From the NCBI RefSeq assembly GCF_000260715.1, contig NC_017834.1, positions 1,868,694 to 1,932,693 of the forward strand: DNA of 64,000 nucleotides, given 5' to 3'. The position numbers were made by a program, and so were the translations under genes. Every line of letters starts with the position of its first letter. The first letter of the stretch is position 1. The DNA comes from Bifidobacterium animalis subsp. animalis ATCC 25527. GTDB lineage: Bacteria > Actinomycetota > Actinomycetes > Actinomycetales > Bifidobacteriaceae. Shown here one piece after another: positions 7,918 to 36,829 of this stretch. The notes under the pieces are model-generated. The model had not been told where the DNA came from and made no database searches. It worked only from the letters and a program-made list of their open reading frames with translations.

Positions 7918-9753
7918 CTACAGTTCGACGACGACGCCCTCCCAGCCGGCGAGCTCGCCGTTTGCCAAGGATTTCGCGGAGTGGATGGCATCGTACGTGC
8001 TCAGGATGATCCGGTCTTCGCTCACGCCGTCGGCGAGCAGATCCGCAACCGGCTTCGGCAGCGCGGCATGCCGACCAGTCAGATTGATTGCCACCAGTAC
8101 GCGCTTCGCCGTGCCGTCCGCGTTCGCCAGCGTGCGCGTGAACGCGTAGACCTGCTCGTCATCGTCGTCGGCGAGCGCCCATTCCCCGGCCGACACAACG
8201 GCACTGTTATGCCGCAGATTGACAAGCTTCTTATAGAACGCGTAGACCGAATCCGGGTCGTCGAACTGCGCGGCGGCATTGATCTCCACATGGTTCGGGT
8301 TCACCGACAGCCACGGTTCGGTCTTGGCGTCAGCCGCGGTGAATCCCGCATATTTCGAACCATCCCACTGCATTGGCGTGCGCGCATTGTCGCGGCCGAA
8401 CAGCGCGAGCGAATCCATCATGGACTCGCCGGACTGCACCTTCGCCTCTTCGACGCGCTGGCGGTATGCGTTGATCGACTCGAGATCGCGGTACTGGCCG
8501 AGTTCCGTGAAATGCGCACCTGTCATGCCGAGCTCCTCGCCCTGATAGATGTACGGGGTGCCGCGATGCAGGTGGATGAGCATGCCGAAGGCCTTCGCCG
8601 AATGCACACGATTCTCCTCATTCGAATCGTCGCCCCAGCGAGTGACCACGCGCGGTTGGTCGTGGTTACAGGTGAACAGACTTGCCCACCCGCGGTCGTG
8701 CACGGCCTCCTGCTGCGCCTTGAGCTGCTCGCGCAGGTGGCGCACATCGAACTTGACGACGTCCCACTTCGAATCGCCCTGGTCAATGCCCACATGGTCG
8801 AACAGGAACAGCATATCGAGTTCCTTGTGGTCTGGATCGGTGATGTACTCGTTACGCGCAGCGTCCACACCCGGCGCCTCGCCGACGTTCATATAGCCCC
8901 CGCGCTTCTCGAACACCTCACGGCGCATCTCCTGCAGGAACTCGTCGATGCGCGGGCCGTCGGAGGAGAACGGGTACGGGCTCGAGTACCCTTCTGGGCC
9001 GGCCGGGTAGTCATCGATCTCAGAACCCGCTTCGCCCGGAAGACGGCCGTTCTTGTCGACCACCTTGGAGATCTGCGTGATCACGTCCATACGGAAGCCG
9101 TCGATGCCCTTATCCATCCACCAGTTCATCATCCGGTAGACAGCTTGGCGCACGTCGGGGTTCTCCCAGTTGAGGTCGGGCTGTTTCTTGGAGTATTGGT
9201 GGAGGAAGTACTCGCCACGCTTGGTGTCATACTGCCATGCGGAACCACCGAAGTAGGAGCCCCATTCGTTCGGCTCGGCGCCCGGTGCACCCGGTTCCAT
9301 GCCCGGTTTGGCGGGGCGCCACCAGTACCAGTCGGCTTTGCTGGAGTTGGGGTCGCGTGACTCCTGGAACCATGCATGCTCGTCGGAGGTGTGATTGACC
9401 ACGAGGTCCATGATCACCTTGATGCCGCGCTTGTGCGCTTCGGCGAGCAGCTCGTCCATGTCATCCATCGTGCCGAAGATCGGGTCGATGGCCTCATAGT
9501 CAGAAATGTCATAGCCATTGTCGTCCTGCGGCGACTGATAGACCGGGCTCAGCCAGATCACATCCACGCCGAGATCGGCAATGTAATCGAGTCGGCTCGT
9601 GATGCCCTTGAGATCGCCGATGCCGTCGCCGTTAGAATCCTGGAAACTCCGCGGATAAATCTGGTACACCACCGCGTTCGCCCACCACGGGTTGGGTGTA
9701 GCGCCGTTCGTACGCACGGAATCGGGAAGCGCAGGCCTATTCATTGCGGTCAT
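7918..9753 (-). CDS. alpha-glucosidase / oligo-1,6-glucosidase, GH13
   Basis: A 611-residue cytoplasmic GH13 hydrolase that splits terminal alpha-linked glucose from short oligosaccharides, such as isomalto-oligosaccharides, sucrose or maltose. Visible are the DSNGDGIGDL calcium-loop sequence near residue 39, the DLVVNHTS region, the nucleophile Asp about 223 (GFRMDVI), the acid/base Glu about 292 (GEAPG) and the transition-state Asp about 365 (CNHDQPR). The start was set at ATG 9753 because ggag sits 6 bases upstream; a longer frame to 9780 lacks a ribosome site. It belongs functionally with the alpha-galactoside genes to the right. Its promoter region abuts the 52-bp repeat array. Exact linkage specificity is not readable. 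Confidence 0.93.
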   Translation of the reverse strand: MTAMNRPALPDSVRTNGATPNPWWANAVVYQIYPRSFQDSNGDGIGDLKGITSRLDYIADLGVDVIWLSPVYQSPQDDNGYDISDYEAIDPIFGTMDDMDELLAEAHKRGIKVIMDLVVNHTSDEHAWFQESRDPNSSKADWYWWRPAKPGMEPGAPGAEPNEWGSYFGGSAWQYDTKRGEYFLHQYSKKQPDLNWENPDVRQAVYRMMNWWMDKGIDGFRMDVITQISKVVDKNGRLPGEAGSEIDDYPAGPEGYSSPYPFSSDGPRIDEFLQEMRREVFEKRGGYMNVGEAPGVDAARNEYITDPDHKELDMLFLFDHVGIDQGDSKWDVVKFDVRHLREQLKAQQEAVHDRGWASLFTCNHDQPRVVTRWGDDSNEENRVHSAKAFGMLIHLHRGTPYIYQGEELGMTGAHFTELGQYRDLESINAYRQRVEEAKVQSGESMMDSLALFGRDNARTPMQWDGSKYAGFTAADAKTEPWLSVNPNHVEINAAAQFDDPDSVYAFYKKLVNLRHNSAVVSAGEWALADDDDEQVYAFTRTLANADGTAKRVLVAINLTGRHAALPKPVADLLADGVSEDRIILSTYDAIHSAKSLANGELAGWEGVVVEL

Positions 9754-9817: not shown

Positions 9818-9882
9818 CATGAATTAATTGCCCAGCGTAGTATGCGGACGGGCGTGTGGGAAAGTAATTCCGCGGTCACATG

Positions 9883-10454
9883 CACGGGAATCTCCGCAAA
9901 ATCGACCATATACGGCGTTTGCGCGGCATACTTTACGGAAGTCTCCGCAAGGAATGCCATGCTGGAGCCTCTTTGCGGTCGGTCATGCGGAAGCATCCGT
10001 AAACCATGCCGCGGCGGAGTCTGCAAATGGTGTATCTTACGGAACGCTCCGAGAACCATGCCAGCAAAAGACGTTTTTGCGGTCCATCTCAAGGAAACTT
10101 CCGAAAACCATGCCACAAAGAAGCGCTATTGCGGCGCATCTTACGGAAGCTTCCGAAAAACACGGCGCAAGCGGGTACTCCTGCGGCATATCTCACGGAA
10201 GACTCCGAGAAACAAACCGTTTTGAGACCACCGCGCGGTCGGTCATGCGGAAGGTTCCGGGTAATGAGGTGCCATAGCGGCAATCTGCGGTACGTCGTAC
10301 GGAAGGTTCCGGGTAATGAGGTGCCATAGCGGCAATCTGCGGTACGTCGTACGGAAGGTTCCGAGAAACACACCAAGGAGGAATCCAGAAATGGTATATC
10401 TTACGGAAGCTTCCGAAAAACAAGCCGCAAACAAAGCGCAAAACAGCGCTTCCA
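9883..10454. repeat. 52-bp-period tandem repeat array A
   Basis: Ten degenerate units begin at 9935, 9987, 10039, 10091, 10143, 10195, 10247, 10299, 10351 and 10403: every spacing is exactly 52 bases. A weaker unit lies near 9883. Each begins (a/g)cggaagnntccg, a small palindrome, then gagaaccatgcc, then about 16 variable bases, then tgcggtnnatctt leading to the next unit. In many units ccgcaaa and tttgcgg form a second hairpin around the variable part. Units 7 and 8 are almost identical. There is no good open frame (52 is not a multiple of 3) and no cas gene. The array fills the gap between the GH13 gene and the DUF559-like gene, 9754-10553. Confidence 0.9.
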
Positions 10455-10476
10455 AGCGCCCATAGGCGCCAAATAC

Positions 10477-10502
10477 GGTGGATAACGGCGAAGTTATCCA
10501 CA
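10477..10502. promoter_or_regulatory. divergent DnaA-box pair
   Basis: GTGGATAAC, six bases, then GTTATCCAC forms a perfect inverted repeat. The right half is a perfect DnaA box TTATCCACA and the left half differs by one base. It lies about 50 bases upstream of the DUF559-like gene. DnaA binding is inferred from sequence. Confidence 0.6.
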
Positions 10503-10553
10503 AATTCCAAATCGGGATTGCACGGCATTCGACACTCCCCTACCGTCGAAAGC

Positions 10554-11510
10554 ATGAAAATAGATTCGCAAATCGAGCGACTCCTCGACGAGTCCCAGAA
10601 CGCACACCGATGCGCGGTGACGACCGACGTCAACCTGCGCCGCAAACTACGCCGCAGATGCGAAAGCGGCGAATTGACCATGCCATACCCGCAACTGTTT
10701 GCGCGGAAGGAAACTTGGGATGCGCTCAATCCGCGCGAGAAAAAGAGACATGTCATACTCGCCCTGGCAATGGTGCGCCCCGACTGGATTTTCTGCGCAC
10801 AGAGCGCGGCTTGCCTGTACGGCATAGAACAGTCGTACCAGATTCACGACAATCCGATGATCCACATTGCATCCACACACGAAAGCGGCATATACCGGGC
10901 CAGGCGGAGTGATGCCGTGATGCACCGCGTGTACACGCCAAATCCGCAATACAACGTGATCAATGGAGCCAAGGTCACCACACTGCCGTGCACGATCTAC
11001 CAATGCGCGCTCGTGCTGCCGTTCGAACAGATACTGCCGCTCGCAGATTCCGCAGTACGCAGCGGTATGGCGCTCGACGATCTGCGACAGTTCCCCGTTC
11101 ACAGCGCGACCGAGGCACTCGCGATCGGCAACGTGCTCGAATACACCGACCCGCGCAGTGAGAACGGCGGCGAAACGCTCGCAAGAAGCCGATTCATCGA
11201 ACGCGGGCTCATGATTCCACAGCTGCAGAAGGAGTTCCCGAATCCGCAGAACCCGGAATACCCGTTCCGCGTTGATTTCATTTGGATTCTGCCAGATGGA
11301 CGCATGATTGTCGCCGAATACGACGGCATGACGAAATACGGCAATGACCGCAAGACCATCGCAAACCGCGTGCACAGGGAGAAACTGCGCGACGAAGCGC
11401 TGCGGCAACACGGCGTCACCGCGATCATCCATTTCGATTATGAGGATTTGCTCAATCCCAACGAACTCATTGCCAAGCTCGTCGCCGCCGGCGTGCCGTA
11501 CCGCCGCTAA
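10554..11510 (+). CDS. AbiEi-like / DUF559-type protein with PD-(D/E)XK endonuclease-like C-terminus
   Basis: 318 residues. The N-terminal half resembles the winged-helix AbiEi/'transcriptional regulator' part, with basic helix NLRRKLRRR at about 27-35 and the conserved-looking FCAQSAACLYG near 80-90. The C-terminal third looks like DUF559/Vsr-type nucleases: GGETLARSRF (Glu207), FRVDFIW (Asp241) and IVAEYDG (Glu255), the expected E...D...ExD order of a PD-(D/E)XK site. Similar bifidobacterial proteins are often annotated vaguely or misnamed. The start is ATG 10554 with a weak gaaag ribosome site; an upstream in-frame TTG (10518) is possible. It is flanked on both sides by the same 52-bp repeat family. 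A toxin, defence nuclease or repeat-maintenance role is speculative. Confidence 0.78.
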   Translation: MKIDSQIERLLDESQNAHRCAVTTDVNLRRKLRRRCESGELTMPYPQLFARKETWDALNPREKKRHVILALAMVRPDWIFCAQSAACLYGIEQSYQIHDNPMIHIASTHESGIYRARRSDAVMHRVYTPNPQYNVINGAKVTTLPCTIYQCALVLPFEQILPLADSAVRSGMALDDLRQFPVHSATEALAIGNVLEYTDPRSENGGETLARSRFIERGLMIPQLQKEFPNPQNPEYPFRVDFIWILPDGRMIVAEYDGMTKYGNDRKTIANRVHREKLRDEALRQHGVTAIIHFDYEDLLNPNELIAKLVAAGVPYRR

Positions 11511-11541
11511 GCATGCAGCGGATCTGGTCGCGACATGGTAT

Positions 11542-11860
11542 GCGGAAGATTCCGAGAACCGTGCCGCAAACGTCGACTTTTGCGGTCGATCATGCGGAAG
11601 ACTCCGTAAACCGTGCCTCAAAAGGCATCCCGCGCGGCATGGCTTACGGAAGGTTCCGAGAGTCGTACCGCAAACGGAGACTTCCGCGGTCAGTCTTACG
11701 GAAGGTTCCGTGAAAGCGACTATATTCAGGATTCAGGTCACTTTGCGGTCGAATATACGGACGACTCCGAAAAACAGACCACGAAACGGGGTCTGTGCGG
11801 TACAGCTTACGGAAGACTCTGAGAGCTGTGCCGAAAATGCATGCGGGCGCCGGATTACGT
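11542..11860. repeat. 52-bp-period repeat array A, second block
   Basis: The same family as 9883-10454 resumes 31 bases after the DUF559-like gene. Units begin at 11542, 11594, 11646, 11698, 11757 and 11809. Spacings are 52, 52, 52, 59 and 52, so one unit gained 7 bases. Sequence again is (a/g)cggaagnntccgagaaccgtgccgcaaa with tttgcggt before the next unit. The block runs to the 3' end of the raffinose-synthase-like gene and accounts for all of the 11511-11854 gap. Confidence 0.88.
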
Positions 11861-13747
11861 AAGAGGCTGCAATACGCGCAGCTCGCACTCGCCGTAATGC
11901 AGCGTGAGCGCGAGGTCTTCGCCGATGCTCAGATGCACACGTCCGCCGGTCTGCGGATCGAACACCGTGAGAGGAGATTCCGTCGCGCGAATGTGGGCGG
12001 TCTGCGGGGCATCGGCGTTCAATCCGACGAACAGCAGTACCTCGTCGCCGCGGAACGTATTGCGAATGCCGAGTGGAACGTCGCCATGCACCGGGTCTGC
12101 GAGCAGACTGTCGAGCACCGGCACGCCGACGCCGTCCGGATGCGTGAGATTGCCGTCGGCATCGAACAGCGGGGCGAGAAGATCGGAATCGGTCTCGCCA
12201 AGCTTGTCGGAACAGTAGATCGGGCCACCGCTTATCCAGCGCAACAGCATATGCGTGCGCGCGTGCGGGTGGCGGGTCCAGAACATATCCCAGTCGCAGT
12301 AGCAGAGGCAGCCCATGAGCAGCGAACAGTACGCGTTCTCGATGGCATGCTCGGTGAGCGATTCGGGAATGTTCGGGAAGAAGTCGTCGCTCGTGCGGGC
12401 GACTCCCTCAGCACAGCGCTGCCAATAGTTCTCGGGAGTCATGCCCATGCAGTGGATCACGGCGAGATGCGCGTATTCCCAATCACCATTGTCATCTTCG
12501 TGACGTATCCAGTTGGTGGCGTATTCCACGGCATCATGGCGAACGCCTAGAGACGCATAGGATTCCAGGCCGCGTGTGAGCACAGGAAGTGTGCCCTGCG
12601 AATCCACCTTCACGAAGTCGATGCCGGCGCCGTCCAAGTGCGTGTTCCATGTACGCCAGAACAGCGCTGCACACTCCGGATTCGCAGTGGGGATTGCCAT
12701 GCCATTGGGTAGTGTTTCGAACGCGGATCGGCTCACGAGGAGCTTGGGATCCTCAACGCGCGCGTCCCCATACGGATACTCCTGCTTGTAGTACTCGTAC
12801 CAATCATCGTCGGATTCGGGCTTGCCGGCGAGCGCGTCCACATCCACGCCATGCCAATACCCTTGGAACGCCTGCCATACGCCGACGTACCGCACGCCGA
12901 AGTCGTGTTTGAGCACGTCAATGGTATGCGAGAGTCCCTGCGGGAAGCGCGTTGTGTCGGCGTCAAAACCGGTTAGCTTACCGTTCTCGACTTGAGACCA
13001 ACCGTCGTCTATGAGCACCCACGAAACGGGCACGTGTTTGGCGGCGAACTCCTCCATTTTGGCGATAATGGCCTGCTCGCTCACGTTCGTGCCGAGCGAG
13101 TCCCAGGTGCACCAGCCAAAACCGCGCAACGATTCCGGCAGAGTCTGCTTCCACAATCTCCCCAAGCCACCGTTCTGCGACATGACCCACTCCGCGCATC
13201 CCCGAATCAGCTCGTAAGGATCCTCGACTTTCCGATCGCTTTGCCGATGGACGAGCAGTGGCCCCTGCAATTGCACACGGTCAACCTGATTCGTGGAGAC
13301 ATCGAGCAGCAAGTCATTGTGGCCTCGCCCATCGCCGCGAATGTCAACGCGCATCTCGTGACGGAACACCGGCATCATCACATGCCACGCCTTCGCCGAT
13401 TTCCACAGCACCAGCTGGGTGCGCTCCGGTATGTCACAGAAATGCTCGACCCATGCCGGCCGCATCCACCATTCCTTGTGCTGGTAAAGGCACAGAATCT
13501 GCCCCACTGGTTTCAATCTGCCCAATTGCAGCCGTACGGACACCGACCGCCCGGCCAGCAATGTGGGATGCTCGAGAATCGGATTGGATTCCGGCAGCTG
13601 CGCACTTATCTCCGTCACCGTTGCGCTACGCAGTGTGCGCCACGGTATTTTGTGTTCGCTCACCGAGTCCGGGGGCAGTTCGACTTCGCCGCGCTCATCG
13701 AACGGCCCGCATTCGGTATGCGCCACCACCGATCTCACCGTTATCAT
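11855..13747 (-). CDS. GH36 raffinose-synthase-like alpha-galactosidase
   Basis: 630 residues of the Sip1/raffinose synthase branch of glycoside hydrolase family 36, here more probably an alpha-galactosidase or alpha-galactosyl-transferring enzyme in sugar use. Diagnostic pieces are FGWCTWDSLGTNVS, VLIDDGWS, the nucleophile region DFVKVDSQG and the likely acid/base Asp in RTSDDFFPN. No signal peptide, so it acts in the cytoplasm on imported sugar. It differs strongly from the classic bacterial-type GH36 at 19279, so the locus carries two distinct GH36 branches. Its upstream region contains repeat arrays C and D. Substrate preference is not decidable by eye. Confidence 0.88.
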   Translation of the reverse strand: MITVRSVVAHTECGPFDERGEVELPPDSVSEHKIPWRTLRSATVTEISAQLPESNPILEHPTLLAGRSVSVRLQLGRLKPVGQILCLYQHKEWWMRPAWVEHFCDIPERTQLVLWKSAKAWHVMMPVFRHEMRVDIRGDGRGHNDLLLDVSTNQVDRVQLQGPLLVHRQSDRKVEDPYELIRGCAEWVMSQNGGLGRLWKQTLPESLRGFGWCTWDSLGTNVSEQAIIAKMEEFAAKHVPVSWVLIDDGWSQVENGKLTGFDADTTRFPQGLSHTIDVLKHDFGVRYVGVWQAFQGYWHGVDVDALAGKPESDDDWYEYYKQEYPYGDARVEDPKLLVSRSAFETLPNGMAIPTANPECAALFWRTWNTHLDGAGIDFVKVDSQGTLPVLTRGLESYASLGVRHDAVEYATNWIRHEDDNGDWEYAHLAVIHCMGMTPENYWQRCAEGVARTSDDFFPNIPESLTEHAIENAYCSLLMGCLCYCDWDMFWTRHPHARTHMLLRWISGGPIYCSDKLGETDSDLLAPLFDADGNLTHPDGVGVPVLDSLLADPVHGDVPLGIRNTFRGDEVLLFVGLNADAPQTAHIRATESPLTVFDPQTGGRVHLSIGEDLALTLHYGECELRVLQPLT

Positions 13748-16602: not shown

Positions 16603-17928
<1,326 letters not shown>

Positions 17929-18006
17929 TCACCGAGGCTCCCTTACCTCGACTGACGGTTGCCAGTGTATGGAACCGCCCTTTTCATTCCCACCTCCCTG
18001 CGTGCC

Positions 18007-18036
18007 TTGAAACCGCGCAAGTAATTGGCGTATATT
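18007..18036 (+). promoter_or_regulatory. promoter of the ROK regulator, probably leaderless
   Basis: TTGAAA (18007-18012), an 18-base spacer and TATATT (18031-18036) make a good promoter. The predicted start falls within about 3 bases of ATG 18046, so the mRNA would have essentially no leader, and no ribosome site is present. Confidence 0.65.
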
Positions 18037-18045
18037 TATGTATTC

Positions 18046-19254
18046 ATGGAAACTAATTCGGATTCGCTTGATTTTCCACGCTGGTTCAGTCGTTCGGATG
18101 CCACGCACAATGTGGCGCGCGGCATCATGCAATACGGCCCGATCGCGCGGACGCCGCTCGCACAGATCTTCAATCTGTCGCAAGGCGCACTCTCGCGCAT
18201 CACCAGCGATCTCATTTACGACGGCGTGATCGAGGAGATGCCGGCTGGCAGCACGCAGGCGGGCAGATTGCCGCAGGGATTCGACCTGCGCGAGTCAGGT
18301 GAGCGTCGCGGCCGCCCACAGACCGCGCTGCGCATTCGCGAGGATTCGCATGCCTTCGTCGGCGTCAACATTCACGACGGCGCCATCACGGTGTCCGAGG
18401 TGAACGCGGTGTGCCACCCCATCGGCAGTGACATCACCGAAACCGTGTCGAACACCGCCCCACAGGCCGTGGTCGAGCAGATCACCCGCATGGTGCGTGA
18501 ACTCGCCGCCTCCTCCCCTGACGCCCCCTCGCCCACCGCGCTTGGTCTTTCGCTCGGCGGCCACGTCGAAGACGACCGTTACGTCACCTTCGCGCCGTTC
18601 CTGTACTGGGATTCCACCGTCGATCTGGGCGGCATGCTGCAGCGGGCCACCGGCATTCCCACCAAGGTGTTCAACGACCTCGACTCGGTGCTGCTGCACG
18701 AATGCTGGTTCGGCGACGCCATTGGTGTCCCCAGATTCGCCGTCATCACGATGGGCGCCGGCGTGGGCTATTCGATCTCCGACCACGGCGACCCGATAGA
18801 CAACCCCGACAAAAGCTATGGTCTGGCCGGACATGTGCTGATCGACCCGGAGGGGCCGCGCTGCTCCTCCGGGCATATCGGCTGCTCGCAATGCCTGACG
18901 TCCGACTCGATCGCCGAGGAATACTCGGGCATCATGGGGCATGTGACCACCTTCGAGGAGTTCTCGCACGATCTGCGGGCGAACCGGCCGCAGGCGCGCA
19001 GACTCGCCGAACGCACCTGCTACCGGCTCGGCGTGCTTGTGGCGACCGTCTCGAATCTGGCGATGCCCTCACGCGTGCTCGTCAGCGGGGAAAGCTCGTT
19101 CATTGCGAAGAAGAACCGCGAATTCATTCGCAAGGGCATCGATGCCTACCGGCACAGCCAGGCCGCGCCGGTCGAATTCTCGATTCCGCAGTTCAGCTGG
19201 CGGCTGTGGTCGGATTCCGCCGCCGCCCGCACCATCGCCACCTACATTCGCTAG
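18046..19254 (+). CDS. ROK family transcriptional regulator
   Basis: 402 residues: N-terminal winged helix (residues about 20-75, AQIFNLSQGALSRITSDLI) followed by a ROK sugar-sensing domain. The zinc-binding ROK signature is visible as CSSGHIGCSQC near residue 283. ROK repressors release DNA when a sugar or sugar phosphate binds. Divergent from the importer operon and beside the alpha-galactosidase, it is most likely the local repressor of this locus. The start ATG 18046 was preferred to an upstream TTG because the promoter -10 lies between them. Confidence 0.9.
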   Translation: METNSDSLDFPRWFSRSDATHNVARGIMQYGPIARTPLAQIFNLSQGALSRITSDLIYDGVIEEMPAGSTQAGRLPQGFDLRESGERRGRPQTALRIREDSHAFVGVNIHDGAITVSEVNAVCHPIGSDITETVSNTAPQAVVEQITRMVRELAASSPDAPSPTALGLSLGGHVEDDRYVTFAPFLYWDSTVDLGGMLQRATGIPTKVFNDLDSVLLHECWFGDAIGVPRFAVITMGAGVGYSISDHGDPIDNPDKSYGLAGHVLIDPEGPRCSSGHIGCSQCLTSDSIAEEYSGIMGHVTTFEEFSHDLRANRPQARRLAERTCYRLGVLVATVSNLAMPSRVLVSGESSFIAKKNREFIRKGIDAYRHSQAAPVEFSIPQFSWRLWSDSAAARTIATYIR

Positions 19255-24391: not shown

Positions 24392-24461
24392 TCTGCCTTC
24401 TGATCGGCACTGCGCGGCACGGTTTGCGGAAGAGTCTGAATACGGCGGCAGTGGTTGCGAA

Positions 24462-36647: not shown

Positions 36648-36659
36648 GTGCTGTTCATC

Positions 36660-36829
36660 CTTTCATCGGCAGGTACGTGCCGAACGATCCGTTGTGAGGG
36701 GATTACTGTGTTGTGTTGTTTCCGTTTGCAACCGTCGTCTTCGACTAGGCCACAACCTTCCACTGCTCTGTGAAGTGTTTCTCTTCGATGAGCTCTCTTC
36801 ACTATACACAATCCGGCGAACAAAGCAAA
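36660..36829 (-). promoter_or_regulatory. promoter and structured leader of the UgpC/MsiK-type gene
   Basis: On the minus strand TTTGCT (36824-36829), a 17-base spacer and TATAGT (36801-36806) would start a transcript near 36795, giving a leader of about 150 bases. The leader contains a short hairpin tcggca/tgccga near 36675. Actinobacterial msiK genes are known to carry a conserved leader RNA (the msiK motif); I suspect but cannot prove it here. The rest of the 36648-37008 gap shows nothing else except the channel gene's promoter. Confidence 0.4.

Follow-up and report, generated by a model that had tools for sequence, protein, structure and literature searches.

Helix-phased palindromic arrays flank, and are probably bound by, an AbiEi-like protein encoded between them in Bifidobacterium animalis

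Described systems and the array-gene-array locus

The antitoxin AbiEi of S. agalactiae binds two 23-bp inverted repeats located 3 bp apart, and Rv2827c binds four inverted repeats with gaps of 13 bp within pairs and 4 bp between them (PMC7319586). The same account reports that both proteins repress their own operons through these inverted repeats, and its authors propose that the extra 10 bp of the Rv2827c spacing perhaps provides room for a larger C-terminal domain (PMC7319586). A different association of a gene with palindromes is known from the REP/RAYT elements. In the published description, the RAYT gene is flanked on both sides by its own REP palindromes and coevolves with them; gene-palindrome pairs differ between species, several can occur in one genome, and the cognate palindromes are dispersed and species-specific and, in some genomes, concentrated near the rayt gene (PMC2817692).

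The window, i.e. the whole stretch of 64,000 nucleotides of B. animalis subsp. animalis ATCC 25527 analysed here, carries a cassette of two palindromic arrays with one gene between them (Table 1). As in the AbiEi antitoxins, the encoded protein may be of winged-helix type, the sequence relationship being weak. Moreover, the published AbiEi and Rv2827c designs, with their 23-bp inverted repeats and spacings repeated as units, sum to 52 or 63 bp (PMC7319586); this sum is our own addition, and it hints independently that the arrays of five and six turns described below may reflect binding geometries of an AbiEi-type protein. In contrast to AbiE toxin-antitoxin systems, no AbiEii toxin (PF08843, DUF1814) was matched at E<=1e-5 in the genome of the window, and none of the 48 places with PF08843 in the genus falls inside the 40 fetched loci of gene homologues (comparison by eye). 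The arrays also differ from AbiEi operators in that they reach eleven units and occur on both sides of the gene and at many other sites, and the protein of 318 residues extends into an additional C-terminal domain that bears a PD-(D/E)XK-like motif.

The likeness to REP/RAYT lies in the flanking of the gene on both sides, the coevolution, the species specificity, the dispersal, the presence of several unlike gene-repeat pairs in one genome and the build-up of repeats close to the gene in some genomes, although two-sided flanking is not universal here: arrays were found on one side only at 18 of 32 array-bearing loci of the genus, and on neither side at 7 of 40 loci. However, judged by its conserved columns the protein is not an HUH/Y1 tyrosine transposase of the kind related to IS200/IS605, and the repeats form tandem arrays at five or six helical turns whose half-sites vary independently, with no sign of hairpin covariation. 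Because the enzyme differs, the locus is not a member of REP/RAYT. CRISPR arrays share regular repeats with a variable segment, but here the repeats are degenerate, the variable segment measures ~14-16 bp (against ~30 bp for spacers), and the immediate neighbours are an amylase gene, the linked gene and an alpha-galactosidase-like gene. We therefore regard the array-gene-array arrangement as a new kind, belonging neither to REP/RAYT nor to the AbiE toxin-antitoxin systems; more cautiously, it may be labelled an expanded AbiEi-type operator with dispersed copies. Our searches of the open-licence PMC literature turned up no publication that connects AbiEi-like or DUF559-like genes with tandem arrays of palindromes in Bifidobacterium.

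Table 1. Features of the array-gene-array locus (window coordinates)
Feature	Position	Strand	Remarks
Left neighbour, alpha-amylase-family glycosidase	7918..9753	-	outside cassette
Array-gene-array cassette, approximate limits	9876..11854	.	flanks have counterparts in relatives without it
Array 1, eleven 52-bp palindromic units	9883..10454	.	5' of the 10554-11510 gene
Array 1 cores	9885, 9936, 9988, 10040, 10092, 10144, 10196, 10248, 10300, 10352, 10404		
318-aa gene between the arrays	10554..11510	+	AbiEi-like region and C-terminal PD-(D/E)XK-like motif
C-terminal motif of the 318-aa protein	E207, D241, E255-x-D-G-x-x-K261-Y		
Array 2, six units, family common to array 1	11523..11841	.	3' of the 10554-11510 gene
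Array 2 cores	11543, 11595, 11647, 11699, 11758, 11810		
Right neighbour, raffinose synthase/alpha-galactosidase-like gene	11855..13747	-	outside cassette

Unit structure and spacing

A sequence-only reading of the array 1 region had proposed ten degenerate units at exactly 52-bp spacing, whose length is held while their sequence drifts. The autocorrelation that it called for confirms the spacing. Between 9840 and 10460 the maximum lies at lag 52 (0.56 identity), followed by lags 156 and 104, and the highest value in 300 shuffles was 0.335. Ten cores, from 9936 to 10404, follow each other at exactly 52 bp, and an eleventh, degenerate one lies 51 bp earlier at 9885. That reading overlooked array 2 (units 11543-11821, with one 59-bp step among its spacings), the gene between the arrays, the unit copies elsewhere in the genome and a perfect repeat of 116 bp at 10248-10363 within array 1, which comprises 2.2 copies of 52 bp (TRF). 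The latter indicates one recent unit duplication in array 1, the rest having diverged. A position weight matrix (PWM) trained solely on 94 units of this genome lying outside the window recovered all 17 units of both arrays, including all 11 of array 1, at 19-51 bits, as compared with at most 11.4 bits in 20 window shuffles. Outside the arrays, the same family (family 1) is represented in the window by an isolated unit-like site at 24427 (13-16 bits, 13.4 by this PWM). The window also contains an msiK RNA at 36652-36710 on the minus strand (Rfam RF01747, 61.6 bits).

Each unit is a pair of inverted half-sites with the consensus GCGGTATATTTTACGGAAG and CTTCCGTGAAATATGCCGC. Over 110 units, the family-1 consensus consists of a dyad, GCGGTATATTTTACGGAAGCTTCCGTGAAATATGCCGC, and ~14 weakly conserved bases, and the unit profile correlates at 0.93 with its own reverse complement. 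Among 94 spacings in 21 chains from fetched stretches of this genome, 86 are of 52 bp, six of 51 and two of 104; in this tally, done by hand, 50, 53 and 54 were permitted but are absent. In the least conserved 14 bp, adjacent units are 36% identical and random pairs 32%. The 52-bp spacing thus prevails while the variable 14 bp are close to random, so that unit length is held at near-saturated sequence, as the earlier reading had claimed; its statement that the array does not look like CRISPR also stands, the repeats being degenerate and the variable segment ~14 bp long. A neutral tandem repeat, in which the register would be kept merely by the rarity of indels, would agree with the slightly higher identity of adjacent units (58%, against 53% for random units), but the dominance of 52 bp (86 of 94 spacings) despite near saturation makes it hardly credible, and the genus-wide data given below argue in the same direction.

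The palindromic units also raised the possibility of a structured RNA of repeated hairpins, or of an RNA antitoxin of type III-like design, as the sequence-only reading had suggested beside a phased protein-binding array; on paper, the CCGCAAA/TTTGCGG pair could indeed fold as a hairpin. Covariation among the units of this genome speaks against both RNA options. Watson-Crick pairing of dyad partners within units lies under the shuffled expectation (z -3.1, 110 units), as does pairing across the dyad between units (z -4.4, 86 unit pairs), and a search of these units and unit pairs for compensatory base-pair changes found none. Half-sites therefore vary independently: each half-site is under selection, and their pairing is not. 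Conservation of half-sites without pairing is what one expects of a protein site rather than of a hairpin. Furthermore, the array region has no Rfam match at gathering scores. Genes next to arrays, as delimited by a simple ORF caller, are arranged in every relative order (tandem, convergent and divergent), and the linked protein resembles AbiEi, with no type III toxin found by any library match. We thus rejected RNA hairpins on covariation and consider either RNA reading highly improbable. The remaining option, a phased protein-binding array, gains support from the whole helical turns, the dyad symmetry, the independent half-sites and the link to a winged-helix-like gene.

The gene and its repeats in the genome and across the genus

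The library matches of the protein family are of AbiEi type. Weak PADLOC AbiEi matches cover residues 3-92, 60-176 and 114-178 of the window protein, which is found by the AbiEi model PDLC02228 at E 6.9e-5; at E<=0.1 this model matches 35 of 40 members (best 1.7e-8). Pfam AbiEi_1 and AbiEi_4 match seven of 40 members each, and the window protein itself has no match in Pfam or NCBIfam. Among the columns invariant in all 40 aligned members are E207, D241, E255, D257, G258, K261 and Y262, and we take the resulting motif, E207/D241/E255-x-D-G-x-x-K261-Y, to be a PD-(D/E)XK-type site; Pfam yielded no nuclease match for the family. The same invariant columns contain no HUH pair, as judged against what we take to be the HUH motif. 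A single-sequence fold was poor (pLDDT 42.5) and the fold search from it uninformative, and a PDB profile search found no relative of the protein. From its sequence, the gene product is likely a DNA-binding, and perhaps a DNA-cutting, candidate protein. Homologues of the gene were found neither in phage records nor in viral contigs, and plasmids gave two weak matches.

Family-1 units are abundant elsewhere in this genome. Counting both strands, 111 places match a one-unit pattern, as compared with two for the reversed pattern, and 110 units in 21 chains were extracted from the fetched stretches. At least 94 units, in about twenty arrays, lie outside the window. With a simple ORF caller, ORFs overlay most arrays and the neighbouring genes show all three orders mentioned above; in six of 20 arrays every one of the six reading frames is closed, and most arrays are probably intergenic.

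The distribution of these units is uneven. With dnaA at the contig start and a skew turn near 0.9-1.0 Mb, all family-1 places among the matches listed fall within 19-560 kb or 1.60-1.88 Mb, and no family-1 unit occurs in the sixteen stretches that we sampled from 600 kb to 1.58 Mb. We initially favoured the idea that phased arrays are chromosome-organising sites marking the origin-proximal half for segregation or a nucleoid function, since the family-1 arrays lie in the origin half. The empty arc makes up 54% of the genome; with 15 hand-merged clusters, the bound is 3e-4. However, in G043, another genome of the genus, the half-site family of one homologue is also dispersed, and its matches lie at 565-976 kb, around the gene and not dnaA, with the exception of one two-mismatch match at 1757 kb. 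Nearness to the parent gene may account for the patterns of both genomes. In addition, a two-unit pattern has at most two matches per genome in 111 other genomes of the genus (28 matches in 25 genomes, some of them unlike 52-bp arrays, against nine for the reversed pattern). The G043 matches, located around the gene and away from dnaA, led us to drop the origin mark as the main reading, and we now regard it as very unlikely.

The genome contains four further, divergent paralogous places of the gene, each beside its own repeats. Next to paralogue B (1531.9 kb) lies an array with a period of 53 from a different family, which also occurs at 116, 245, 595 and 1549 kb; a third family, of period 52, borders paralogue C (672 kb) on both sides; paralogue E (1451 kb) has a fourth, on one side, also with period 52; and paralogue D (1697 kb) is bordered on both sides by a less regular palindromic repeat with motif steps of 77, 86 and 73 bp. 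Paralogues D and E (loci L039 and L040) are broken by stops and have retained their flanking palindromic repeats. Two further repeats were observed in this genome: a short 52-bp array at ~652.8 kb (L133, 12828-12984; CGACCATA ... TATGGTCG), with no gene homologue found within ~19 kb, and a CRISPR-like array of 61-bp period at ~1.657 Mb (L150, ~16800-18400; repeat CGGATCATCCCCGCCTGTGCGGGGCAAAC).

At E<=1e-10, 93 of the 112 genomes of the genus contain homologues of the gene. We sampled one homologue in each of 40 genomes, together with as much as 8 kb of flanking DNA per side; it was the best-listed one, except in G058 and G005, where the best lay at a contig end and another match was used, and several sampled contigs stop close to the gene. 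Within 900 bp of the gene, 33 of 40 loci show a lag of 51-53 or 61-63 (>=52% identity), as compared with 15 of 147 controls, which are positions shifted by 3.5 or 5.5 kb inside the same loci and share them. For strong lags (58%; 52, 53, 61 and 62) the counts are 24 of 40 against 2 of 147, the lag classes and the strong cut having been fixed after inspection of the lag table. Seven of the 40 loci have no lag of either class at threshold. The 70 near-gene matches include 23 at 51-53 and 33 at 61-63, with few between, which again argues against a neutral repeat. Most of the 144 far matches fall at multiples of three, the pattern expected of coding sequence, and weak matches at 51 or 63 may stem from coding periodicity. 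In total, 62 arrays, some of them overlapping, were delimited at 32 loci, 58 of them in the two lag classes; at 14 of the 32 loci they lie on both sides at threshold. Units of these 58 arrays, again with some overlap, show dyad symmetry with a median z of 6.1.

The repeats follow the protein. In all 16 loci tested, including the window and paralogue C, the best match of the 5' array is the 3' array of the same locus. Array similarity correlates with protein identity over 31 loci (Mantel rho 0.32, p 0.0005; one hand-chosen array per locus, species kinship not removed), and does so for the N-terminal (0.28) and C-terminal (0.31) parts separately (p 0.0005 each, 31 loci). The five- or six-turn label changes four times on the protein tree, against 11.8 times when shuffled (none of 500 as low), and one clade of 18 rows carries only six-turn labels (14 of 14 labelled); labels were hand-assigned, a few of them from weak arrays, and nine of 44 rows are unlabelled. 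That the lag class follows the protein clade is a further argument against neutrality. Arrays of period 63 in G061 and G033 turned up in scans blind to the gene link and lie beside a gene homologue.

Outside the genus, 28 homologue loci contain no strong array and five weak ones, not clearly above background, and most homologues among the matches listed there align only from about residue 22-45 on. Matches to the DNA pattern in contigs of other genomes (70 stretches, one place each) were taken as chance; nine were inspected and show no period near 52. Small genomes of the genus (G108, G035 and G110; fetched loci of 41-51% GC) contain 52-bp arrays of unlike sequence at L057, L058, L059 and L061, although their homologues of the gene are distant ones. 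Several draft contigs of other species (L182, L185, L191 and L199) stop within ~0.65 kb of a homologue; arrays that break assemblies would produce such ends.

Gain of the cassette and a proposed explanation

The amylase locus was compared in ten relatives. Eight of them have the amylase gene next to the alpha-galactosidase-like gene, without the cassette gene or the arrays, and G001 and G069 have no alpha-galactosidase match at this locus. The gap between the matches to the two genes is 140-164 bp in six relatives, 199 bp in G026 and 777 bp in G017, and none of the ten loci has a family-1 unit above 0 bits by PWM. Counterparts in cassette-free relatives extend up to ~9869 on the amylase side and begin again with the gene starting at 11855. 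On the amylase side, seven of the eight relatives (all but G026) match the window recognisably as far as a GTGGGAAAGTAATT-like stretch, after which the cassette begins in the window. In the G017 gap, the place of the cassette is taken by another repeat, which has a 20-bp period and is enclosed in a long inverted repeat (L152, 5390-5560). Since the outer genes adjoin without it in eight relatives, the array-gene-array was probably gained as a cassette; gain in the lineage of the window is probably the simplest reading, as compared with loss in all other relatives. Likewise, the PWM finds no counterpart of a four-unit solo array (262.8 kb) at the matching locus of any of the eight relatives; the gap itself was inspected in five. 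That relatives lack the cassette is no proof that anything was moved by the protein.

We consider it fairly likely that the protein encoded between the phased arrays binds them, that the cassette was gained, and that its units have spread in a REP/RAYT-like manner. The computed steps of this explanation are the period, the symmetry, the two-sided linkage, the recurrence across the genus with different sequences, the coevolution, the absence from relatives and the dispersal. Two operator-type arrays would be bound by the product of the intervening gene, a protein with an AbiEi-like winged-helix region and a PD-(D/E)XK-like C-terminal domain, acting with no separate toxin. As successive half-site pairs recur every five turns, bound protein pairs would be lined up on one face of the DNA. 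After its gain in the lineage, units of the cassette would have accumulated without the gene at other chromosomal sites, like REPs beyond rayt. The C-terminal domain may cut DNA, and the protein could drive the spread of the units, perhaps by cutting and repair copying. It is tempting, on a more tentative note, to see here a new class of self-spreading bacterial DNA, a counterpart of RAYT/REP with an unrelated enzyme. In it, a nuclease descended from AbiEi, with a winged helix and no toxin, would move its helix-phased operator arrays through the chromosome or copy them, and the protein clade would set five or six turns; we view this as possible, with the balance somewhat against it.

Alternatively, the arrays could be autoregulatory operators only, through which the protein represses its own gene, the dispersed arrays being passive copies or regulators of their neighbours and nothing being mobile. 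Array 1 lies directly upstream of the gene in the window, AbiEi and Rv2827c repress their operons via inverted repeats (PMC7319586), and tandem duplication alone could lengthen arrays, as the identical stretch of 116 bp illustrates. However, arrays also lie 3' of the gene, with both sides occupied at 14 of 32 array-bearing loci at threshold, at least 94 units are found at other places of the genome, the cassette and one inspected solo array are absent from relatives, and all 40 aligned proteins share the C-terminal motif without variation. These observations render a purely autoregulatory role unlikely.

If arrays bound by their own protein and spreading in a REP/RAYT-like manner are indeed what the locus represents, a common unnamed gene family, present in 93 of the 112 genus genomes searched, would carry its own addressable binding arrays. 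It would offer many natural, unlike pairs of protein and site, from which recognition rules and array assembly could be learned, and the switch between five and six turns by protein clade would provide a handle on protein-protein contacts along DNA. It would also add a second, unrelated type of enzyme to the REP/RAYT idea, so that the spread of short palindromes could be tested in another system.
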